From contig NZ_JAERQF010000003.1 in NCBI RefSeq assembly GCF_016734815.1, positions 62,001 through 126,000 of the forward strand: a stretch of DNA of 64,000 nt, read 5' to 3'. Both the position numbers and the translations under genes were made by a program. This DNA comes from Hymenobacter rubidus. GTDB lineage: Bacteria; Bacteroidota; Bacteroidia; Cytophagales; Hymenobacteraceae. Shown in pieces: positions 9,008 to 62,427 of the stretch. The notes under the pieces are model-generated. The model was not told where the DNA came from. It saw nothing but the letters and a program-made list of their open reading frames with translations, and ran no database searches. The first letter of the stretch is position 1, and the number at the start of each line of letters is the position of its first letter.

Positions 9008-9104
9008 GAACGTCATGCTGAGCGAAGCCGAAGCATCTCGCGTACAACAGTAAATGAATTACTACCACACGCGAGATGCTTCGGCTTCGCTCAGCATGAC
9101 GTTC
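9008..9104. repeat. Family A palindromic element, copy A3
   Basis: Begins GAACGTCATGCTGAGCGAAG and ends in the matching complement; the loop contains AGTAAATGAATTACT, itself palindromic. It lies between the secreted-protein start and the 3' end of the HPPD gene. Confidence 0.9.
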
Positions 9105-10852: not shown

Positions 10853-10970
10853 AGAACGTCGTGCTGAGCGTAGCCGAAGCATCTCGCGTGGGGTAGTAAC
10901 TCAATCGTTGAAACGGTTTTGTTTACTACTGCGGTAGAGATGCTTCGGCTGCGCTCAGCACGACGTTCTT
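10853..10970. repeat. Family A palindromic element, copy A4 (variant with CGTGCTGAGC arms)
   Basis: Arms read AGAACGTCGTGCTGAGCGTA and the complementary right end; both arms share the same T-to-G change (GTCGTGCTGAG), so the change is compensated across the stem. The loop is longer than in other copies. Confidence 0.87.
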
Positions 10971-23442: not shown

Positions 23443-23490
23443 GGATTGGGGTAGGAGGGGATGGGGGAGGCGGGAAGGAGTGAAAAGGCC

Positions 23491-23585
23491 GTCATGCTGA
23501 GCGCAGCCGAAGCATCTCTCCTGCAATAGTAATTTAGTTGCGTTGCGCGGTAGAGATGCTTCGACTGCGCTCAGCATGACGTTCT
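23491..23585. repeat. Family A palindromic element, copy A6
   Basis: Arms GTCATGCTGAGCGCAGCCG and complement. It lies between the divergent ATPase and esterase genes, so it overlaps or adjoins both promoters. Confidence 0.9.
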
Positions 23586-34320: not shown

Positions 34321-34380
34321 AGCAGCGTGGTTATTTTGATAAAGCAGCTGCTCTAGAAAGTCGGCTTCGGGTGCCCGTCG

Positions 34381-34467
34381 GTCATCCTGAGCGCAGCGAA
34401 GGACCTTCTCACGCCTGCACAATCGCCGTTTAGTTGGGATAAGGTCCTTCGCTGCGCTCAGGATGAC
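34381..34467. repeat. Family A variant palindrome, copy A7 (GGACCTT subtype)
   Basis: Arms GTCATCCTGAGCGCAGCGAA plus GGACCTT and their complement. It differs from the main family in both arms in a compensated way and lies just upstream of the TldD remnant. Confidence 0.85.
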
Positions 34468-34602
34468 ATCGGTCTTCATTTCCTAAACAGCTATGAAATC
34501 AGTTGAGTAAGGATGGGTACAAATCTTAATGAAAAAGACAGTCTGACTGCAACAACGTTGCGTTGTTCATAGCAGGCCCGCACAATTGCTGCGCCGCGGG
34601 AG

Positions 34603-45436: not shown

Positions 45437-45542
45437 GAACGTCATGCAGAACGCAGCGAAGCATCTTGCCCGCAGGAAATAATTCAATCGACTGGTTTAG
45501 TGGTGGCGGGCAAGATGCTTCGCTGCGCTCTGCATGACGTTC
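45437..45542. repeat. Family A palindromic element, copy A10 (GCAGAACGC subtype)
   Basis: Arms GAACGTCATGCAGAACGCAG with compensating right arm; it lies between the adaptor and permease genes of system 2. Confidence 0.92.
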
Positions 45543-54047: not shown

Positions 54048-56687
54048 ATGTCTCCCGAACACCAACGCCTCCAGGAAGCCAACGCCGGCACCAAGCGCTG
54101 GCGCAAATTTGGCCCTTATGTATCTGAGCGGCAGTGGGGCACCGTGCGCGAAGACTACAGCGCCAACGGCGACGCCTGGAACTACACCACCCACGACCAG
54201 GCCCGCAGCCGCGCCTACCGCTGGGGCGAGGAAGCCCTGGCCGGCTTCTGCGACGATGAGCAACTCATCTGCTTCGGCCTGGGCCTGTGGAACGGGCAGG
54301 ATGCCATTCTGAAGGAGCGCCTTTTTGGGCTGAGTGGCACCGAGGGCAACCACGGCGAGGACGTGAAGGAGGTGTATTATTACCTCGACGCCACGCCCAC
54401 GCACTCCTACCAGCGCATGCTCTACAAGTACCCGCAGCATGCGTACCCCTACGAGTGGCTGGTGACGGAAAATGCCCGCCGCGACCGCATGAGGCCGGAA
54501 TTTGAGCTGATGGATACGGCAATTTTTCTGGAAAATCGGTACTTCGATGTGTTTGTGGAATACGCCAAGGCCGACGCCGAGGACATCCTCATCCAGCTCA
54601 CCGTCGTGAACCGGGGGCCCGATGCCACCACGCTGCACCTGCTGCCGCAGCTCTGGTTCCGCAATACCTGGGCCTGGGGCAACGACCCCTACCGGCCCAC
54701 CATTTCGGCCACCGCAGCGGGCCACCTGCTGGCCGAGCACAAGGACCTGGGCCCGCTCACGCTCTACTGCGACGAAGCGCCCGCGCTGCTGTTCTGCGAA
54801 AACGCCACCAACAACGCCCGCCTCTACGACGCGCCTTCCGACGAGCAGTTTTTCAAGGACGGCATCAACAACTTCCTGCTGCACAACCAATACGATGCCG
54901 TGAACCCGGCCCGTACCGGTACCAAAGCCGCCGCGCAATACGAGTTGAGCATTGGGCCGGGCGCCACCCGCGTGGTGCGCCTGCGCCTGGCCGCGCCGGG
55001 CCTCACCGCCCCCTTCGCCGACTTCGACCAAACCCTGGCCCTGCGCGAAACCGAGGCCGACCAGTTCTACCAGGTCATTCAGGCCGACCTGACCGACCCG
55101 GACGCTCGGCTGGTGCAGCGCCAGGCCTTTGCCGGCATGCTCTGGAGCAAGCAGTTCTATTATTACGATGTGCCGCAGTGGCTGGCCGGCGACCCGGCCC
55201 TGCCGCCGCCCCCGCCCGAGCGCCGCGACGGCCGCAACGGCACGGGCTGGACGCATCTCAACAACGGCCACGTCATTTCCATGCCCGACAAGTGGGAATA
55301 TCCCTGGTACGCGGCATGGGACCTGGCTTTTCACTGCCTGCCGCTAGCCCAGCTCGACCCGCAGTTTGCCAAAGGGCAGCTCCGGCTGCTGTGCCGCGAC
55401 TGGTACATGCACCCCAACGGCCAGCTGCCCGCCTACGAGTGGAAGCTGAGCGACGTGAACCCGCCGGTGCACGCCTACGCCACCTGGCGGGTGTTCAAAA
55501 TGGACCAGAAGGCCCGCGGCGATGCCGGCGACGTGGCTTTCCTGGAAATCATTTTCCACCGCCTGCTGCTCAATTTTACCTGGTGGGTGAACCGCAAGGA
55601 CCGCGACGGCCACAACATCTTCGAGGGCGGCTTTCTGGGCCTCGACAACATTGGTGTGTTCGACCGCTCGGCGCCGTTGCCCTACGGTGGCTTTCTGGAG
55701 CAGGCCGACGGCACTGCCTGGGTGGCCATGTACGCCCTCAACATGATGCGTATTGCGCTGGAGCTGAGCCAGACCAACCCTGTGTACCAGGACTTGGCTA
55801 GCAAGTTCTTCGAGCACTTCCTCTACATTGCCGAGGCCATGACCAACGTGGCCAACGACCACATGGACCTCTGGGACGACGAGGACGAGTTCTATTACGA
55901 CGCCCTGAACACGCCCGACCGCGGCCACGAGCTGCTAAAAGTGCGCAGCCTGGTGGGCCTCATCCCGATGTTTGCCGTGGAGGTAATCGACGAGGAACTG
56001 CTGGCCGGCGCACCCCGCTTTCTGGCTCGCATGAACTGGTTTCTGGACAACCGCCCGGTGTTGGCGGCCCTGGTGTCGCGCTGGCAAGACCCCGGCAAGG
56101 GAGCCCGACACCTGCTCTCACTCCTACGTGGCCACCGAGTGAAGCGACTGTTGGCCAGAATGTTGGACGAGACGGAATTCCTCTCGCCCTACGGCGTGCG
56201 CAGCCTCTCGCGCTATCATCTGGAGCGCCCGTTCGTGTTTCGCGGCACCGAAACCCAGTTCAAGGTGAACTACGAGCCGGCCGAGTCGCAGACCAGCCTC
56301 TTCGGGGGCAATTCCAACTGGCGAGGCCCCATCTGGATGCCCATGAACTTTATGCTCATCGAGTCGCTCCAACGCTTCCACCACTACTACGGCGACGATT
56401 TCAAGGTGGAATATCCCACCAATTCCGGCCAGACCGTGACCCTGCTGGCCGTGGCCGATGCCCTCACTACCCGCCTCACCAAACTATTCCTGCGCGACCC
56501 CGAAACTGGCCGGCGTGCTTGTTTCGGCGAAGACAAACAACTGCAAACCGACCCCGATTTCCGCGACTATCTCTGGTTTCACGAATACTTCCACGCCGAC
56601 AACGGCCACGGCCTCGGCGCCAGCCACCAAACCGGCTGGACGGGATTGATTGCCAAACTGCTCCAGCCGCGCAGCGGGGGTAGTTAA
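54048..56687 (+). CDS. Glucosidase-like glycoside hydrolase (GH63/MGH-type alpha/alpha toroid)
   Basis: Protein of 879 residues without signal peptide, starting MSPEHQRLQEANAGTKRWRK at 54048; the frame from 53961 is repeat-derived. It shows the features of the GH63-related bacterial glucosidases: KFGPYVSERQWGTVREDYSA, the beta-sandwich QLTVVNRGPDATTLHLLPQL, then the toroid with the catalytic-region blocks KWEYPWYAAWDLAFH, WKLSDVNPPVHAYA and SNWRGPIWMPMNFML. Relatives act on alpha-linked glucose or mannosylglycerate. It is probably cytosolic. Gene order suggests co-transcription with the SDR. Confidence 0.85.
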   Translation: MSPEHQRLQEANAGTKRWRKFGPYVSERQWGTVREDYSANGDAWNYTTHDQARSRAYRWGEEALAGFCDDEQLICFGLGLWNGQDAILKERLFGLSGTEGNHGEDVKEVYYYLDATPTHSYQRMLYKYPQHAYPYEWLVTENARRDRMRPEFELMDTAIFLENRYFDVFVEYAKADAEDILIQLTVVNRGPDATTLHLLPQLWFRNTWAWGNDPYRPTISATAAGHLLAEHKDLGPLTLYCDEAPALLFCENATNNARLYDAPSDEQFFKDGINNFLLHNQYDAVNPARTGTKAAAQYELSIGPGATRVVRLRLAAPGLTAPFADFDQTLALRETEADQFYQVIQADLTDPDARLVQRQAFAGMLWSKQFYYYDVPQWLAGDPALPPPPPERRDGRNGTGWTHLNNGHVISMPDKWEYPWYAAWDLAFHCLPLAQLDPQFAKGQLRLLCRDWYMHPNGQLPAYEWKLSDVNPPVHAYATWRVFKMDQKARGDAGDVAFLEIIFHRLLLNFTWWVNRKDRDGHNIFEGGFLGLDNIGVFDRSAPLPYGGFLEQADGTAWVAMYALNMMRIALELSQTNPVYQDLASKFFEHFLYIAEAMTNVANDHMDLWDDEDEFYYDALNTPDRGHELLKVRSLVGLIPMFAVEVIDEELLAGAPRFLARMNWFLDNRPVLAALVSRWQDPGKGARHLLSLLRGHRVKRLLARMLDETEFLSPYGVRSLSRYHLERPFVFRGTETQFKVNYEPAESQTSLFGGNSNWRGPIWMPMNFMLIESLQRFHHYYGDDFKVEYPTNSGQTVTLLAVADALTTRLTKLFLRDPETGRRACFGEDKQLQTDPDFRDYLWFHEYFHADNGHGLGASHQTGWTGLIAKLLQPRSGGS

Positions 56688-56690
56688 ATC

Positions 56691-56788
56691 GTCATGCAGA
56701 GCGCAGCGAAGCATCTCGCGTGCGCAACGCAATTCATTCGATTGAGTCACTATTGCGAGCGAGATGCTTCGCTGCGCTCTGCATGACG
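56691..56788. repeat. Family A palindromic element, copy A11 (GCAGAGCGC subtype)
   Basis: Arms GTCATGCAGAGCGCAGCGAA and complement, between the hydrolase and cyclase genes, ending 10 bp before the latter's start. Confidence 0.9.
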
Positions 56789-56798
56789 CTTTAATCCT

Positions 56799-57425
56799 AT
56801 GCCCGTCCCCTCCACTTGGCTCGACGCCACCACGCCCATCAGCGACGGCATGGTGCACTGGCCCGACAACGCGCCCGTTCACGTCAAAAAAACGCTCAGC
56901 ATTGCCACCGGCGCGGCGGCCAATGTCACGGAAGTATCGATGAGTGCCCACACCGGCACCCACGTCGACGCCCCGCTGCACTTCACCGCCAACGCCGGCG
57001 ACAGCACCACCATCGACCTCAGCCGCCTCATGGGCCCGGCCCGCGTCGTGGCCATCACCGACCCGCGCAGCATCAGCCTCGCCGAGATTCAACCCCTGGA
57101 AATCCGGCCCGGCGACCGGCTGCTGTTCCGCACCCGCATCTCGGATGCCGAATGGAGCACCGCGCCGTTCCAGCCTGATTTTGTGGCCCTCGACGCCGAT
57201 GCGGCCCGGCACCTGCGCGACTTGGGCGTGGTATGCGTGGGCGTCGACTACCTGTCCGTGGGCAAAGCCGACACCCACCACACCTTGCTCGACGCCGGCA
57301 TTTGCGTAATTGAGGGCCTCGCTTTGCAACACATTCTGCCTGGCGAGTACGAGATGCTTTGCCTACCACTAAAAATAGTGGACAGCGACGGCGCGCCCGC
57401 CCGCGTGCTGCTCCGGCCTCTATGA
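56799..57425 (+). CDS. Cyclase family protein (kynurenine formamidase-like)
   Basis: Metal-dependent hydrolase of 208 residues. The family signature HTGTHVDAPLHF carries the metal-binding His and Asp residues; others are DYLSVGKADTHHTLLDAG and VIEGLALQHILPGEYEM. Known relatives open N-formylkynurenine or cyclic amides/imides. It lies just upstream of the pyrimidine catabolic genes but is separated from them by a strong terminator, so a shared pathway is uncertain. Confidence 0.88.
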   Translation: MPVPSTWLDATTPISDGMVHWPDNAPVHVKKTLSIATGAAANVTEVSMSAHTGTHVDAPLHFTANAGDSTTIDLSRLMGPARVVAITDPRSISLAEIQPLEIRPGDRLLFRTRISDAEWSTAPFQPDFVALDADAARHLRDLGVVCVGVDYLSVGKADTHHTLLDAGICVIEGLALQHILPGEYEMLCLPLKIVDSDGAPARVLLRPL

Positions 57426-57461
57426 GGATGACATAAGCTGCCAAACGTTTAAAAACATAAC

Positions 57462-57504
57462 ACAGGCGCCGCAAAACAATCATTCGTTGTTTTGCGGCGC
57501 CTGA
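57462..57504 (+). terminator. Intrinsic terminator-like hairpin after the cyclase gene
   Basis: CAGGCGCCGCAAAACAA pairs with TTGTTTTGCGGCGCCTG around a short TCATTCG loop. A T-run is only partly present. Confidence 0.8.
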
Positions 57505-57591
57505 CTACTTTAGCCCGAACGAAGCCAGCGCGACAACACAGTTGATGATTCGGCGCAAAATATTTTTATCGGAAACGATTGCGGCGCTGGG

Positions 57592-57618
57592 TTGTCTCCC
57601 GCAAAACCCTTAGCTTGC
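57592..57618 (+). promoter_or_regulatory. Putative promoter of the pyrimidine catabolic operon
   Basis: TTG at 57592-57594, 17 bp, then TAGCTTG at 57612-57618, one T short of TAnnTTTG. It lies 24 bp before the mmsA ATG. Confidence 0.35.
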
Positions 57619-57641
57619 ACCCCGCTTAACATTACGGTAAC

Positions 57642-59114
57642 ATGGAAGTCCAAACTTTGAAGTATCCGGCCATTCGCAATTACGTGGCTGGTCAACCCCA
57701 AGAATCTGCTGCTACGCCCACCATGGACGTATTTTCGCCCCTTAATGGGCAACTGATTTCCACTTTGCCCCTCAGCAACGCCGCCGCGCTCGACGTCGCC
57801 GTGCAGGCTGCCAAAGCCGCCTTCCCCGCTTGGTCGGCCACGCCCATCAAGGAGCGGGTGCAGATTTTCTACCGCTACAAAACCCTGCTGGAGCGCGACA
57901 TGAAGGCCCTGGCCGACCTCGTGCGCGAGGAAAACGGCAAAACCTACGACGAAGCCCGTGCCGAAGTCGAAAAAGCCATCGAGCTGACCGAGTTTGCCTG
58001 CTCCATGCCGCAGCTCATCCAGGGCGAATTCCTGGAAGTGAGCAAGGGCGTGGAAGCCCGTGCCGAGCGCAAGCCGCTGGGCGTGGTGGCCAGCATCGCC
58101 CCGTTCAACTTCCCCAACATGGTGCCCCACTGGACCATCCCGAATGCCATCGTGCTGGGCAACACCATGATTCTGAAGCCCTCGGAACAGGTGCCCCTGA
58201 GCGCCGTAAAAATTGCCGAGCTGCTGAAAGAAGCCGGCTTGCCCGACGGCGTGCTGAACGTGGTGAACGGCGACAAGGAAATCGTGGAAGCCATCTGCGA
58301 CCACCCCGACATCCAGGCCGTGAGCTTCGTGGGCTCTACCAAGATTGCCAAAGTCGTGTACATCCGCGCCACCAGCAACCTGAAGCGCTGCGTAGCCCTC
58401 GGCGGCGCCAAAAACCACCTGATGGTGCTGCCCGACGCCCACCCCGAAATGACGGCCTCTAACGTGGCCGCCAGCATGTCGGGCTGCGCGGGCCAGCGCT
58501 GCATGGCCGGCTCCACCATGGTCGGCGTGGGCGCGGTAGATGGCATCGTGGCCAAAATTGTGGAAGAAGCCAAGAAGATTGTGGCCGGCCAGAACCTCGG
58601 CTCCGTCATCAGCAAAGAGGCCAAAGCGCGCATCGAAAAGCACATCAGCGAAGCTGAAGCCGCCGGCGCCAAAGTCCTGCTCGACGGCCGCAACGCCGTA
58701 GTGCCCGGCCACGAAGACGGCTACTATGTGGGCGCCACCGTCATCGACTACGTGACGCCCGACATGCGCATTGCCCAGGAAGAAGTCTTCGGCCCGGTGC
58801 TCGCCATCATGCGCACCAACACCTTGGATGAGGCCCTGGCCATCGAAAACGCCAACCCCTACGGCAACGCCGCTGCCGTGTTTACCAGCAGCGGCAGCAG
58901 CGCCCGCTACGTGATGGACCACGCCAACGCCGGCATGATTGGCGTGAACATCGGCGTGCCCGTGCCCCGCGAGCCCTTCTCCTTCGGCGGTTGGAACGAC
59001 TCGAAATTCGGCGCCTGCGACATCACCGGCAAAAGCTCCATTGAATTTTGGACGCAGCTGAAGAAGACTACGACGAAGTGGAACCCCGAGTCGCGGGTCA
59101 ACTGGATGAGCTAG
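57642..59114 (+). CDS. mmsA: CoA-acylating (methyl)malonate-semialdehyde dehydrogenase
   Basis: Aldehyde dehydrogenase of 490 residues. Family marks are PLGVVASIAPFNFPNMVPHW, SFVGSTKIAKVVY and the catalytic Cys287 in SGCAGQRCMAGSTMV, the MmsA/IolA-specific context; the C-terminus ends EFWTQLKKTTTKWN. MmsA converts methylmalonate semialdehyde to propionyl-CoA, and malonate semialdehyde to acetyl-CoA. The latter reaction is the last step after the aminotransferase in beta-alanine breakdown, which the following genes supply. It begins at an ATG 24 bp after a putative promoter. Confidence 0.95.
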   Translation: MEVQTLKYPAIRNYVAGQPQESAATPTMDVFSPLNGQLISTLPLSNAAALDVAVQAAKAAFPAWSATPIKERVQIFYRYKTLLERDMKALADLVREENGKTYDEARAEVEKAIELTEFACSMPQLIQGEFLEVSKGVEARAERKPLGVVASIAPFNFPNMVPHWTIPNAIVLGNTMILKPSEQVPLSAVKIAELLKEAGLPDGVLNVVNGDKEIVEAICDHPDIQAVSFVGSTKIAKVVYIRATSNLKRCVALGGAKNHLMVLPDAHPEMTASNVAASMSGCAGQRCMAGSTMVGVGAVDGIVAKIVEEAKKIVAGQNLGSVISKEAKARIEKHISEAEAAGAKVLLDGRNAVVPGHEDGYYVGATVIDYVTPDMRIAQEEVFGPVLAIMRTNTLDEALAIENANPYGNAAAVFTSSGSSARYVMDHANAGMIGVNIGVPVPREPFSFGGWNDSKFGACDITGKSSIEFWTQLKKTTTKWNPESRVNWMS

Positions 59115-59130
59115 TTGGTCGGTCAGAAAA

Positions 59131-59233
59131 AGAACGTCATGCCGAGCGCAGCCGAGGCATCTCGCGTGCAATGGCAACCCAATCGTTCAACGACTTCGAG
59201 CGAGATGCCTCGGCTGCGCTCGGCATGACGTTC
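59131..59233. repeat. Family A palindromic element, copy A12, upstream of the GIY-YIG gene
   Basis: Arms AGAACGTCATGCCGAGCGCA and complement, with compensated changes (GCCGAG, GAGGCATC) against the main family. It ends 4 bp before the GIY-YIG ATG. Confidence 0.92.
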
Positions 59234-59237
59234 CAGG

Positions 59238-59534
59238 ATGAGCTTCTACGTTTACATTCTCACTAATCCAGCCCAAACAGTGCTCTACACCGGCGTTACC
59301 AATAATCTGGAACGCCGCCTTTACGAGCATGGTGAAGGCTTAGGTGAATGGGGTAAATTCACAGGTCGCTATCAATGCAACTTGCTCGTCTATTTCGAAA
59401 CCAGTCCCGATGCCAAGCAGGCAATTGCCCGCGAAAAGCAAATCAAAAACTGGACTCGCGCCAAAAAGGAATTTCTAATCGACACGCTTAATCCTGACTG
59501 GGAACCGATAGATTTACAAAATTGGAGCGGCTAG
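59238..59534 (+). CDS. GIY-YIG nuclease-domain protein
   Basis: Protein of 98 residues made of a single GIY-YIG domain: FYVYILTNPAQTVLYTGVTN supplies the two Tyr-containing motifs (YVY and YTG), then LERRLYEHGEGLGEW with catalytic Arg and Glu-like helix, and REKQIKNWTRAKKEFLI. Many Bacteroidota encode this short family without a known role. The gene starts 4 bp after palindrome A12 and ends 10 bp before a 46-bp duplicate of that palindrome's right arm. It interrupts the pyrimidine operon between mmsA and the aminotransferase. Base use is more AT-rich than its neighbours, and it looks like an inserted unit. Confidence 0.9.
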   Translation: MSFYVYILTNPAQTVLYTGVTNNLERRLYEHGEGLGEWGKFTGRYQCNLLVYFETSPDAKQAIAREKQIKNWTRAKKEFLIDTLNPDWEPIDLQNWSG

Positions 59535-59544
59535 TAAAAACATC

Positions 59545-59590
59545 CAACGACAGCACGCGAGATGCCTCGGCTACGCTCGGCATGACGTTC
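59545..59590. repeat. Half palindrome: direct repeat of the A12 right arm
   Basis: The 46 bases align without gaps to 59188-59233, with five differences (41 of 46 identical). Shared core: GCGAGATGCCTCGGCT and CGCTCGGCATGACGTTC. Confidence 0.88.
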
Positions 59591-59608
59591 AAAACAGAAC
59601 CAACGATA

Positions 59609-60961
59609 ATGGAAACCACCTTCGCCACCGACAAAGACCAAATCCTGCACGACAACCTCGACCATACCCTCTTCTCATGGTCGAAGCAAACGGGCCTGAA
59701 CCCCATCAACGCCGAGCGCGCCGAGGGCGTGTACGTGTACGACCGCGACGGCAAGCGCTACCTCGACTTCTCGGCCCAGCTCATGAACGTGAACATCGGC
59801 CACGGCGACCAGCGCGTGACCGAAGCCGTGGCCGCCCAGATGCGCGAGCTCAGCTACGTGTACCCCGGCATGATTACCAAGGCCCGCGGCGACCTCGGCA
59901 AGCGCCTGGCCGAAATCACCGCAGGTAACCTCACCAAGGCGTTTTTCACACTGGGCGGGGCCGAAGCAATCGAAAACGCCATCAAGCTGGCGCGGGTGTA
60001 CACCGGTCGCCACAAGATTGTGTCGCTCTACCAGTCGTTTCACGGGGCCAGCTACGGCGCCATGAGCGTGGGCGGCGACCCCCGCAAGTTTGCCGTCGAC
60101 AGCCAGGCCATGCCCGGCACCGTGCACGTCGAAAACCCCTATTTCTACCGCTGCCCCTGGTACTCCGAAACGCCCGAGCAGTGCGCCCAGCGCGCTGCCG
60201 ACGCCATGGAGCGCATAATAGGATACGAGAACCCCGGCAGCGTGGCGGCCATCATCATGGAAGGGGAGTCGGGCACCTCGGGCTGCATCAAGTACCCGCC
60301 CGGCTACTGGACGCGGGTGCGCGAAATCTGCGACAAGCATGGCATCCTGCTCATTGCTGATGAGGTGATGTCGGGCTTCGGCCGTACCGGCAAGTGGTTC
60401 GGCTCCGACCACCATAATGTCAAAATTGACATTATGTGCATGGCCAAGGGCATCACCGCCGGTTACTTGCCCCTGGGCGCGGTGATGGTGGACGAGAAAA
60501 TTGCCAAGTCCTTCGACGACAAGCCCCTGCCGCTCGGCCTCACGTACTCGGCCCACCCGGTTTCGTGCGCCGCTGCCGTGGCCGTGCTCGATATCTATGA
60601 GTCGGACAACCTCCTCGAAAACACCGTGGAAATGGGCCGGTACATGGACGAGCAAGTGGCCCAGCTCATGCGTCACCACCCCAGCATCGGCGACTGGCGC
60701 AACACCGGCCTCTTCGGCTGCCTCGAGCTGGTGAAAAACCGCGAAACCAAAGAGCCCATGGCCCCCTGGAACGCCACGCCCGCCCAAATGGACATCATGA
60801 ACCAGGTAGCTGCCAAAATCCGTGAGCTGGGCATGTACACCTTCGTGCGCTGGAACTACATCTTCATTTGTCCCCCGCTGACAATTAATAAGGAGGAGAT
60901 TGATGAGGGTTTGGCTATTATTTCGGAGGCCATCAGCATTGCGGATAAGTACGTGAACTAG
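59609..60961 (+). CDS. Class III aminotransferase, probably beta-alanine:pyruvate type
   Basis: PLP enzyme of 450 residues from the ATG at 59609; the frame from 59522 is repeat-derived. Marks are GVYVYDRDGKRYLDFSAQLM, FFTLGGAEAIENAIKLAR, LLIADEVMSGFGRTGKWF and the PLP lysine Lys280 in CMAKGITAGYLPLGAV. Its family includes beta-alanine and taurine aminotransferases. The gene stands between ureidopropionase/dihydropyrimidinase and mmsA in the same direction, so conversion of beta-alanine to malonate semialdehyde is the likely reaction. Confidence 0.9.
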   Translation: METTFATDKDQILHDNLDHTLFSWSKQTGLNPINAERAEGVYVYDRDGKRYLDFSAQLMNVNIGHGDQRVTEAVAAQMRELSYVYPGMITKARGDLGKRLAEITAGNLTKAFFTLGGAEAIENAIKLARVYTGRHKIVSLYQSFHGASYGAMSVGGDPRKFAVDSQAMPGTVHVENPYFYRCPWYSETPEQCAQRAADAMERIIGYENPGSVAAIIMEGESGTSGCIKYPPGYWTRVREICDKHGILLIADEVMSGFGRTGKWFGSDHHNVKIDIMCMAKGITAGYLPLGAVMVDEKIAKSFDDKPLPLGLTYSAHPVSCAAAVAVLDIYESDNLLENTVEMGRYMDEQVAQLMRHHPSIGDWRNTGLFGCLELVKNRETKEPMAPWNATPAQMDIMNQVAAKIRELGMYTFVRWNYIFICPPLTINKEEIDEGLAIISEAISIADKYVN

Positions 60962-60963
60962 CA

Positions 60964-61046
60964 CGTAGCGCGGACTTTTAGTCCACGACAGACAACAATA
61001 GAGCCCCACAAACTATGCAAGGCTGCGGACTGAAAGTCCGCGCTAC
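60964..61046. repeat. Family G palindromic element (GTAGCGCGGACT type)
   Basis: GTAGCGCGGACTTTTAGTCC and GGACTGAAAGTCCGCGCTAC form an imperfect inverted pair across the aminotransferase-hydA junction; each arm is itself a small hairpin (GGACTTTTAGTCC). Confidence 0.88.
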
Positions 61047-61053
61047 TTTTCAC

Positions 61054-62427
61054 ATGTCCATTCTCCTCAAAAACGGCCGCGTCGTCACCGCCGATTCGGA
61101 CGCCGTCTGCGATATTCTGATTGAAGGTGAAACCATCGTGTCCATCGGCCGCAACTTGTCGGCCGATGGGGCGGAGATGATTGACTGCACCGGTAAGATG
61201 GTGATGCCCGGCGGCATCGACCCGCACGTGCACCTTGAAATGCCCTTCATGGGCACTTTCAGCTCCGATACCTACGAAACCGGCACCCGCGCCGCCCTGC
61301 ACGGCGGCACCACCACCGTCATCGACTTCATTCTGCAAAAGCAGGGCAATTCGCTACGTTCTGCCTTTGAAGAATGGAGCGGCCGCGCCACCGGCAACGC
61401 CGTGGGCGACTACAGCTTCCACATGGCCGTGACGGATTTTAACCCGAGCACCAAGGAGGAAATCAAGGACATGGTGACCGAGGGCATCACCTCCTTCAAA
61501 ACCTTCATGGCCTATAAAGGCGCGCTCATGATTGACGATGCGCAGATGGTGGGCCTGATGCAGGAAGTGAAGAAGCACGGCGGCCTCGTGACGGCCCATG
61601 CCACCAACGGCGACATGATTGATACGCTCATCGCCCAGCACCGGGCGCAGGGCAAGCTCACGCCGCTCTACCATTACCTCTCGCAGCCCGAAGTGACGGA
61701 ATCCGAAGCCTCGGGCCGCTTCGCCGACATCGCCAACTACACGGGCGTAAATGCCTACATCGTGCACCTCACCTGCGAGGGCGCGCTCAACCAGGTGCGC
61801 CGCGCCACCGAGCGTAACCAGCGCGTGTTGGTCGAAACCTGCATTCAGTACCTCACGCTGGATGCTTCGCTATACGAAGACGAGGCCAACGGCGCGAAGT
61901 GGGTAATGTCGCCCCCGCTGCGCGAGAAGAAGGACCAGGCCACTCTCTGGGCTGGTTTAAATCAGGGCCTCGTGAACGTGGTCGGCACCGACCATTGCCC
62001 CTTTATGTGGGAGCAGAAAATGATGGGCAAGGACGACTTCTCGAAAATCCCGAACGGCCACCCCGCCATCGAGCACCGCATGGAGCTGCTATTTTCGGAG
62101 GGCGTAAATACCGGCAAAATCACGCCGCAGAAATTTGTAGAAGTGACTTCGACCAACGCCGCGAAAATCTTTGGCATGTTCCCGCGCAAAGGCACCATCA
62201 GCATTGGTGCGGATGCTGATTTAGTTATTTTCGACCCAAATAAAAAGCACACGATTTCGGCGAATACGCACCACATGAACTGTGACTATTCCGCTTACGA
62301 AGGCTGGGAACTGACCGGTAAAATCGACACCGTGCTGCTACGCGGCCAAGTAGCCGTCGATGCCGGCGAAACCAAAGTAGCAAAAGGTTACGGCCAGTTT
62401 ATCAAGCGCGGCAAGACGAACATTTAG
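61054..62427 (+). CDS. hydA: Dihydropyrimidinase
   Basis: Cyclic amidohydrolase of 457 residues converting dihydrouracil to N-carbamoyl-beta-alanine. The ATG at 61054 (MSILLKNGRVVTADS) is used; the 61015 extension is repeat. Metal ligands are His58 and His60 in DPHVHLEMP, the carboxylated Lys149 in TSFKTFMAYKG, His in VTAHATNGD and IVHLTCEGA, and Asp in VGTDHCPF. The sequence GTISIGADADLVIFDP is typical of the family. It lies between aminotransferase and ureidopropionase genes. Confidence 0.95.
   Translation: MSILLKNGRVVTADSDAVCDILIEGETIVSIGRNLSADGAEMIDCTGKMVMPGGIDPHVHLEMPFMGTFSSDTYETGTRAALHGGTTTVIDFILQKQGNSLRSAFEEWSGRATGNAVGDYSFHMAVTDFNPSTKEEIKDMVTEGITSFKTFMAYKGALMIDDAQMVGLMQEVKKHGGLVTAHATNGDMIDTLIAQHRAQGKLTPLYHYLSQPEVTESEASGRFADIANYTGVNAYIVHLTCEGALNQVRRATERNQRVLVETCIQYLTLDASLYEDEANGAKWVMSPPLREKKDQATLWAGLNQGLVNVVGTDHCPFMWEQKMMGKDDFSKIPNGHPAIEHRMELLFSEGVNTGKITPQKFVEVTSTNAAKIFGMFPRKGTISIGADADLVIFDPNKKHTISANTHHMNCDYSAYEGWELTGKIDTVLLRGQVAVDAGETKVAKGYGQFIKRGKTNI

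Follow-up and report, generated by a model that had tools for sequence, protein, structure and literature searches.

A GIY-YIG nuclease gene framed by inverted CGTC-type palindrome arms in Hymenobacter rubidus and its candidate role as a RAYT-like partner of the repeat

REPs carrying a CGTC tag have been described from five phyla, Bacteroidetes included, and dRS3 of Neisseria and RPE-4 and RPE-6 of Rickettsia are among their members (Di Nocera et al. 2013, PMC3733652). According to the accessible sections of that paper, they have a CGTC or TGTC tag, a stem of 8-9 bp with complementary AT at its first two positions, a loop of 4-5 nt and a 3-nt tail, CCA; they form dimers with spacers mostly of 20-100 bp, are mainly intergenic and occur in tens to thousands of copies, with several families in some genomes. 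They apparently have no dedicated transposase, and the same sections contain no mention of GIY-YIG and no association of CGTC repeats with transposase genes. The RAYT/REPIN systems (Nunvar 2010, PMC2817692; Bertels and Rainey 2011, PMC3116915) are the other main point of comparison. In its accessible part, a further paper (PMC9465073) lists RAYT and a GIY-YIG gene separately, and that of RepRanger 2025 (PMC12306157) has no words starting with nuclease, RAYT or transposase. Literature searches with the arm sequences studied here gave no related title among the matches listed, and searches joining GIY-YIG with REP-type terms gave no link among the matches listed.

A group of small GIY-YIG site-specific nucleases, Ssn, is said to have been reported in 2025 (in Nat Commun); they reportedly cut single strands at the dRS3-like NTS repeats of Neisseria and have thousands of homologues with sequences of their own. 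That study reportedly dealt with cleavage and transformation.

The window analysed here is a stretch of 64,000 nt from Hymenobacter rubidus. It contains a unit of 459 bp that has an aldehyde dehydrogenase gene (57642-59114) on one side and the gene of a class III aminotransferase (59609-60961) on the other and is made up as follows.

59132..59165, + strand: left arm (LA) of a family A palindrome, CGTC-tagged, C/G subtype (inverted repeats I1 and I2; motif match 59135-59162 +)
59166..59199, no strand: spacer (loop) of the upstream palindrome (repeat comparison; look-alike spacers in relatives L154 and L159, by eye)
59200..59233, - strand: right arm of the same palindrome, RA1 (complementarity to LA 100%; motif match 59203-59230 -)
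59238..59534, + strand: GIY-YIG nuclease gene, 98 aa (ORF and Pfam; residues Y17, G19, R27, H31 and E66 present)
59553..59590, - strand: second right arm (RA2), which closes the LA-gene-RA unit (97% complementary to LA over 38 nt; motif match 59560-59587 -)
59132..59590, + strand: entire unit LA-RA1-GIY-RA2 (ORFs, repeats, Pfam and orthologous site comparison)

In the upstream palindrome two 34-nt arms (59132-59165 and 59200-59233) are 100% complementary around a loop of 34 nt. Folded as single-stranded DNA, this 102-nt palindrome gave -52.8 kcal/mol (z -14.4), a value equalled by none of 200 shuffles. The nuclease gene, which ends at 59534, begins 4 bp past the palindrome (ATG at 59238), as the preliminary description had it, and the lower GC content noted there was also borne out: 46.8% for the gene, against 61.8% and 61.0% for the flanking genes and 62.0% for the window. 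The direct repeat of the right arm that had been placed after the gene is real and longer than claimed, pairing 59181-59233 with 59538-59590 (53 nt, 85%) from 3 bp past the stop codon. There are also inverted copies at 59132-59169 and 59553-59590, in which 37 of 38 nt pair (97%), so the GIY-YIG gene itself lies between inverted arms. The direct-repeat reading and the inverted-arm description are both true.

GIY-YIG was the sole Pfam family matched by the 98-aa protein (PF01541, E 5.5e-18, 65.5 bits against a cut-off of 22.6), and the structures PDB 1zg2 and 1ywl, UPF0213 GIY-YIG proteins, belong to the same family (phmmer E 3.4e-06 over residues 1-84 and 5e-04 over residues 3-84). Its best named matches, among the best 80 of 563 relatives, are from Hymenobacter species. 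NCBIfam gave no match, PADLOC gave a single weak match that was judged to be chance (E 0.0057), and PHROGs gave two weakly matched families, one of which is named endonuclease. No Rfam family reached gathering level in eight GIY loci, and in window 56000-62000 there were sub-threshold Rfam matches only, most of them on long hairpins. Pfam identified the neighbours as aldehyde dehydrogenase upstream and class III aminotransferase, amidohydrolase and CN-hydrolase downstream, enzymes that we take to fit reductive pyrimidine breakdown.

A protein search of the H. rubidus genome returned four GIY-YIG matches, diverged from one another. Inverted arms enclose every one of them, and these arms belong to three types. 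The gene described above (L001) and L002 each follow a complete palindrome and precede a further arm, of family A in the former and of B type (GTCATGCAGAGCG...) in the latter. L003 (B arms, GTCATGCAGAGCG...) and L004 (C arms, GTCATTCCGAG...) lie directly between one left and one right arm.

Arms of these types are also dispersed. The genome (5.49 Mb) holds 622 family A arms when up to 2 mismatches are allowed, 305 on the + and 317 on the - strand, together with 111 B arms and 8 C arms (up to 3 mismatches); the reversed patterns of A, B and C had no match in the genome. Among 17 motif matches in the window there are six close +/- pairs, as in inverted dimers. In a count made without a tag rule the window has 17 family A arms, and C precedes GTC in 13 of these and A or G in the other four, an 18th match (34705) that is not an arm having been left out. 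The dispersed palindromes of the window with A or B arms include the following.

9011..9101, no strand: dispersed family A palindrome, T/A subtype (motif; turnover at orthologous site)
10857..10965, no strand: dispersed family A palindrome with an identical substitution in both arms, GTCGTGC / GCACGAC (motif and site comparison)
23490..23581, no strand: dispersed family A palindrome (motif)
45440..45539, no strand: dispersed B-type palindrome built on the GTCATGCAGA... core; arms of this type frame paralogues L002 and L003 (motif)
56690..56788, no strand: dispersed B-type palindrome (motif)

At 34380-34468 the window also holds a palindrome of a further arm type (GTCATCCTGAGCGCAGCGAAGGACCT), which frames another GIY-YIG clade of the genus; this genome has no member of that clade among its four GIY matches. 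Palindrome arms are in places read into ORFs, for example as the peptides REMLRCALHDD or MLSVAERSRSISTAS, in window 56484-57332 (-) and at the ORF starts of L142 and L206, and automatic gene calls nearby may therefore carry false extensions.

The family A core consists of 5 bp around a 12-nt interior, with the tail CTC. With the core written as ATxyz...z'y'x'AT, exact complementarity of the triplets was seen in 225 of 304 distinct arms from Hymenobacter, of five types, against an expectation of 146 from independent columns; the AT was imposed by the search pattern and is not a result of this comparison. In the B-type arm two of the three triplet positions are complementary. When four single arms were folded alone none was stable (z 0.8, 0.7, -0.3 and 0.5, with 0.8 for the family A arm).

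Two dispersed sites were compared by eye in relatives, 15 of 29 being placeable at the first and 26 of 29 at the second, with two long gaps left out. The relatives carry palindromes with mutually matching arms that vary by species, or unrelated palindromes, or none. A precise empty site with target duplication was not found at either of the two sites, where turnover in place was seen instead. Arms that agree within a palindrome and vary from species to species are evidently renewed as a pair, whether by conversion, by re-insertion or by selection for pairing. The substitution shared by both arms at 10857-10965 is a sign of such joint renewal. The site orthologous to this one holds unrelated palindromes in some relatives, gttgagttttgagggttgaatgttgag and its complement in L319 and L324 and others in L323 and L328.

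The framing of GIY-YIG genes by arms was then compared with controls in three samples. The cross-phylum sample, made up of the best 80 of 563 relatives and the four H. rubidus copies, gave 84 loci from Bacteroidetes, Clostridia, Chloroflexi, Deltaproteobacteria and other groups; three with short flanks were dropped to leave 81. With a local score of at least 34 in 300-bp flanks taken as an inverted repeat, inverted arms span the gene in 43 of the 84 loci and in none of 455 shifted windows; for the 81 testable loci the number is 42, and for the 171 control ORFs it is 1. The arm motif was present on both sides in 54/81 loci against 5/171 control ORFs, on at least one side in 72/81 against 38/171, and on neither side in 9/81 loci. 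In the phylum survey 237 of 395 genomes had a match to the GIY-YIG query, and 67 loci (27 plus 40 picked by hand from the list, one per genome) were taken from it, four of which duplicate cross-phylum records (L338=L070, L339=L078, L346=L103, L352=L107). Here the motif was found on both sides in 42/67 loci against 0/55 control ORFs, on at least one side in 56/67 against 6/55 and on neither side in 11/67, and inverted repeats were found in 25/67 against 0/55.

Within Hymenobacter the query matched 99 of 120 genomes. The 113 copies studied comprise the four of H. rubidus, 29 from the genus search and 80 of the further places it listed, with lower-scoring and unlisted places left out, and five Hymenobacter loci of the cross-phylum sample recur among them. 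Inverted arms frame 74 of the 113 within 300 bp, a number that rises to 101 with an upstream limit of 800 bp; among the remaining 12 the motif lies within 400 bp on one side in eight, on both sides in two and on neither in two (L210 and L237). The short Hymenobacter loci provided only seven control ORFs, of which one passed the inverted-repeat cut, so the weight rests on the other control sets. The linkage of nuclease gene and palindrome proposed for this locus thus recurs, from the four of four paralogues outwards.

The type of arm was compared with a tree of the 113 proteins. GTCATT/GTCATC arms accompany 17 of the 18 rows of one clade; of the other 95 rows, 88 have GTCATG (or GTCAGG) arms, four have other arms and three have none by the rule used. 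Eight genomes (G000, G002, G012, G020, G031, G064, G092 and G112) contain both protein groups, and in each of them the arms are split by protein. On these sequences, arm type follows the protein clade and not the host genome, and this matching is the strongest sign that nuclease and repeat form a matched pair. Across the 113 copies Y17 is conserved in 113, G19 in 112, R27 in 111, H31 in 112 and E66 in 111; these are residues with a catalytic role in GIY-YIG enzymes. Median dN/dS was 0.06-0.07 in four chosen groups of intact copies (0.06 for the A-type genes), calculated from 13/28, 15/15, 36/36 and 2/21 usable pairs with synonymous sites near saturation, which indicates that the nuclease gene is under purifying selection.

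The A-type clade, to which the gene of the window belongs, has 13 rows, one per genome. In 11 of these 13 species the gene lies beside the same aldehyde dehydrogenase gene, ten of them placed by neighbour clusters and G053 by coordinates. Three of the 11 same-site copies (L116, L118 and L123) have an internal stop and keep their framing arms. An intact palindrome without the gene, a state that the preliminary description had proposed to look for, is present at the orthologous site of two relatives (L154/G029 and L165/G034), and other relatives have different palindromes there or none. In a tree of the neighbour gene, drawn without support values, the presence of the A-type gene is patchy (7/30), and G034, with the palindrome only, falls together with two carriers of the gene, G071 and G072. 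This patchiness fits repeated loss, or repeated gain. Recombination between the two right arms of the unit at 59132-59590 would delete the gene and leave the palindrome, the state seen in G029 and G034, and would give repeated loss.

The suggestion that the nuclease is a RAYT-like mobiliser of family A has accordingly to be divided: the link between nuclease and palindrome stands, and the term mobiliser is unsupported, the A-type gene being at one site in 11 of 13 species. A gene held at one orthologous site in this way is not behaving as an actively jumping element. The genome has only four paralogues, all diverged, which speaks against an autonomous transposon; three sites were compared without a clean empty site being seen, a number too small to exclude one. 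The A-type gene thus looks more like a RAYT than like a free transposon.

Many copies without an obvious left arm turned out to carry it farther off, beyond an intervening gene (LA-cargo-GIY-RA). The idea that these copies lay at rRNA operons was rejected, most of them having a cargo gene between arm and nuclease. In 28 Hymenobacter elements the left arm is over 180 bp away from the nuclease; 27 of them contain a same-strand ORF of at least 60 codons, or 24 an ORF of 50 or more by an ATG-only rule. The cargo ORFs fall into 11 groups, one of which L206 apparently joins only through a peptide read from the arm. Pfam analysis of ten cargo representatives gave one Imm50 (L183, E 1.1e-12), one weak NlpE and no family at E 0.05 for the other eight. 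Outside Hymenobacter cargo is confined to a few candidates among 79 loci (L045 and L090).

The sites of these elements were named by reading of the neighbouring genes. Eighteen of the 28 long elements, from different species and with 10 of the 11 unrelated cargo groups, lie between carA and carB, and, among the matches listed, four cargo groups recur at two or three places out of the carA-carB gap, the neighbourhood of lspA and that of a carbamoyltransferase gene. Orphan genes, small and for the most part on the same strand, make the carA-carB gap a hypervariable hotspot: 62 distinct gaps, from 84 to 1226 bp, were collected, identical gaps and loci without a readable carA (L259, L266 and L204) being left out. 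Terminal inverted repeats are present in 34 of them, 24 with the arm motif, and absent from 28. They bound 20 of the 21 gaps that have a recognised GIY gene, whereas no such gene was recognised in eight gaps of the arm class (e.g. L254, L287 and L302). Arms can therefore bound cargo without a nuclease, and cargo can sit in this gap without arms. By eye, proteins whose start resembles the Imm50 cargo of L183 occur in the arm-bounded, nuclease-less gaps of L254, L276, L287 and L302. L264, L268 and L269 have a C-rich palindrome family at both ends of the gap. The cargo-bearing elements are the most novel part of these results.

Arm numbers were also compared with the presence of the nuclease, kinship being ignored in each of the Hymenobacter comparisons. 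The median number of A arms was 27 in the 99 genomes with a GIY match and 8 in the 21 without (p 0.002), and 120 in genomes of the A-type clade against 17 in others (p 0.001); for B arms it was 57 in B-type genomes against 0 in others (p 7e-5), and A and B arm counts correlate across genomes (rho 0.50). Across the phylum, arms of the type GTCATTCTGA...GAAGAATC occur in 115/237 genomes with GIY against 28/158 without (p 1.5e-10), and at the level of at least 10 such arms the difference is weak (38/237 against 17/158, p 0.09). The preliminary description had held that genomes rich in family A and free of any such nuclease would argue for chance proximity, and such genomes do in part exist: six of the 21 genomes in which the query used detected no GIY-YIG carry A arms in some number, 526 in G103, 121 in G008 and 20-40 in each of the others. 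The six genomes richest in A arms are G103, G039, G000, G057, G091 and G020, and the A-type clade gene is found only in G000; G039 has 517 A arms and a weak GIY match only (E 2.2e-7). Similarly, none of the four genomes richest in B arms (G089, G066, G039 and G020) carries a member of the B clade as drawn here. Arm-rich genomes that lack the matching clade count against simple mobilisation. G103 and G039 adjoin G000 on the tree of the neighbour gene, so these two may have lost the nuclease recently; alternatively, other GIY clades may act in trans.

The observation is real and general, and the linkage is not chance. The explanation that we favour, and consider probable on this comparative evidence, is that the GIY-YIG protein acts as a sequence-specific nuclease cognate to the palindromes that frame its gene, a RAYT-like partner of CGTC-type REPs with GIY-YIG in place of HUH tyrosine chemistry. 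The nuclease is probably the partner of the framing repeat family, and we infer that mobilisation is plausible. The protein would recognise the CGTC-ATxyz...z'y'x'AT core and cut there. The palindrome folds strongly as a hairpin, and single-stranded or branched DNA is a known substrate of small GIY-YIG enzymes, so the core would probably be recognised as a single strand or when extruded as a hairpin or cruciform. Arms that had been cut could be excised or copied with the DNA they enclose, be it a short spacer, the nuclease gene (LA-GIY-RA) or cargo and nuclease (LA-cargo-GIY-RA). If the protein does cut the arms, there is about an even chance that arm-bounded DNA moves. The wider proposal, of a class of mobile DNA powered by a lone GIY-YIG nuclease, in which inverted CGTC-type arms bound a spacer, the nuclease gene, or small cargo with the nuclease and so serve as a cassette shuttle, is put forward tentatively and may well not hold. 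Were it true, the nuclease-less arm-bounded cargos of eight carA-carB gaps would have been moved in trans.

Three other explanations were weighed against the favoured one. The GIY-YIG gene could be a homing-type passenger that inserts into palindromes spread by another enzyme (RAYT or host recombination), as would suit genes found in or beside complete palindromes, the palindrome-only orthologous sites in L154 and L165, and the arm-rich genomes with no detected GIY or no matching clade. However, L003 and L004 consist of LA-GIY-RA only, with no complete palindrome adjoining, and arm type tracks protein clade within single genomes, so that nuclease and repeat family change together; we regard such a passenger as unlikely. 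A role without any mobilisation, in which a single-strand nuclease of the Ssn kind mentioned above cuts incoming or replicating strands at dispersed sites and so tunes transformation or recombination, the flanking arms being regulatory or a self-target, appears rather doubtful. Purifying selection and a single A-type site in 11 species would fit such a host-serving role, but it does not itself explain the inverted framing of 101 of 113 copies or the cargo-bearing copies at several sites. The CGTC-type arms, moreover, include dRS3 of Neisseria in the accessible sections of PMC3733652, a point in favour of this role.

It could also be that small AT-rich genes and palindromes, often terminators, simply gather in the same intergenic spaces with no functional link. 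Several unrelated palindrome families do share intergenic sites, small genes, arm-bounded or not, collect between carA and carB in general, and one of the seven Hymenobacter control ORFs passed the inverted-repeat cut. Against this, control genes of the same loci have arms on both sides in only 5/171 and 0/55 cases, where the nuclease genes have them in 54/81 and 42/67, and the class of arm tracks the clade of protein; chance gathering is thus highly improbable.

Small GIY-YIG genes framed by matching arms across phyla provide a testable candidate partner for CGTC-type REPs. Confirmation of cleavage would account for many small GIY-YIG genes whose role is unknown and would provide a second, chemically unrelated counterpart of RAYT. 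Movement of cargo, if real, would be a new route for small genes, such as immunity genes, between sites.

In relation to the systems described at the outset, family A resembles the CGTC REPs, as set out in the accessible sections of PMC3733652, in its CGTC tag, the complementary AT at the start of the stem, its inverted pairs and its high-copy, intergenic dispersal. It differs in having a 5-bp core with a 12-nt interior where those repeats have a stem of 8-9 bp and a loop of 4-5 nt, and in its tail, CTC as opposed to CCA. Because of this mismatch in stem and loop the arms are better regarded as relatives or a new variant of CGTC REPs than as proven members.

The Ssn nucleases reportedly share with the present proteins the combination of a small GIY-YIG nuclease and a cognate dRS3-like genomic repeat. 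That study may cover part of the present findings and makes the pairing of nuclease and repeat in itself less novel; as far as we know, the embedding between inverted arms, the clade-matched arms within one genome and the copies with cargo are new here.

With the RAYT/REPIN systems the present elements have in common a nuclease-type gene that is kept at its site and flanked by dispersed palindrome ends, and a repeat family proper to each protein lineage. They differ in having a GIY-YIG protein where RAYT is a Y1 transposase of the HUH type, in the tag, CGTC/TGTC as against GTAG, and in the cargo that some copies carry. RAYT/REPIN is thus the closest system in behaviour, with a different enzyme.
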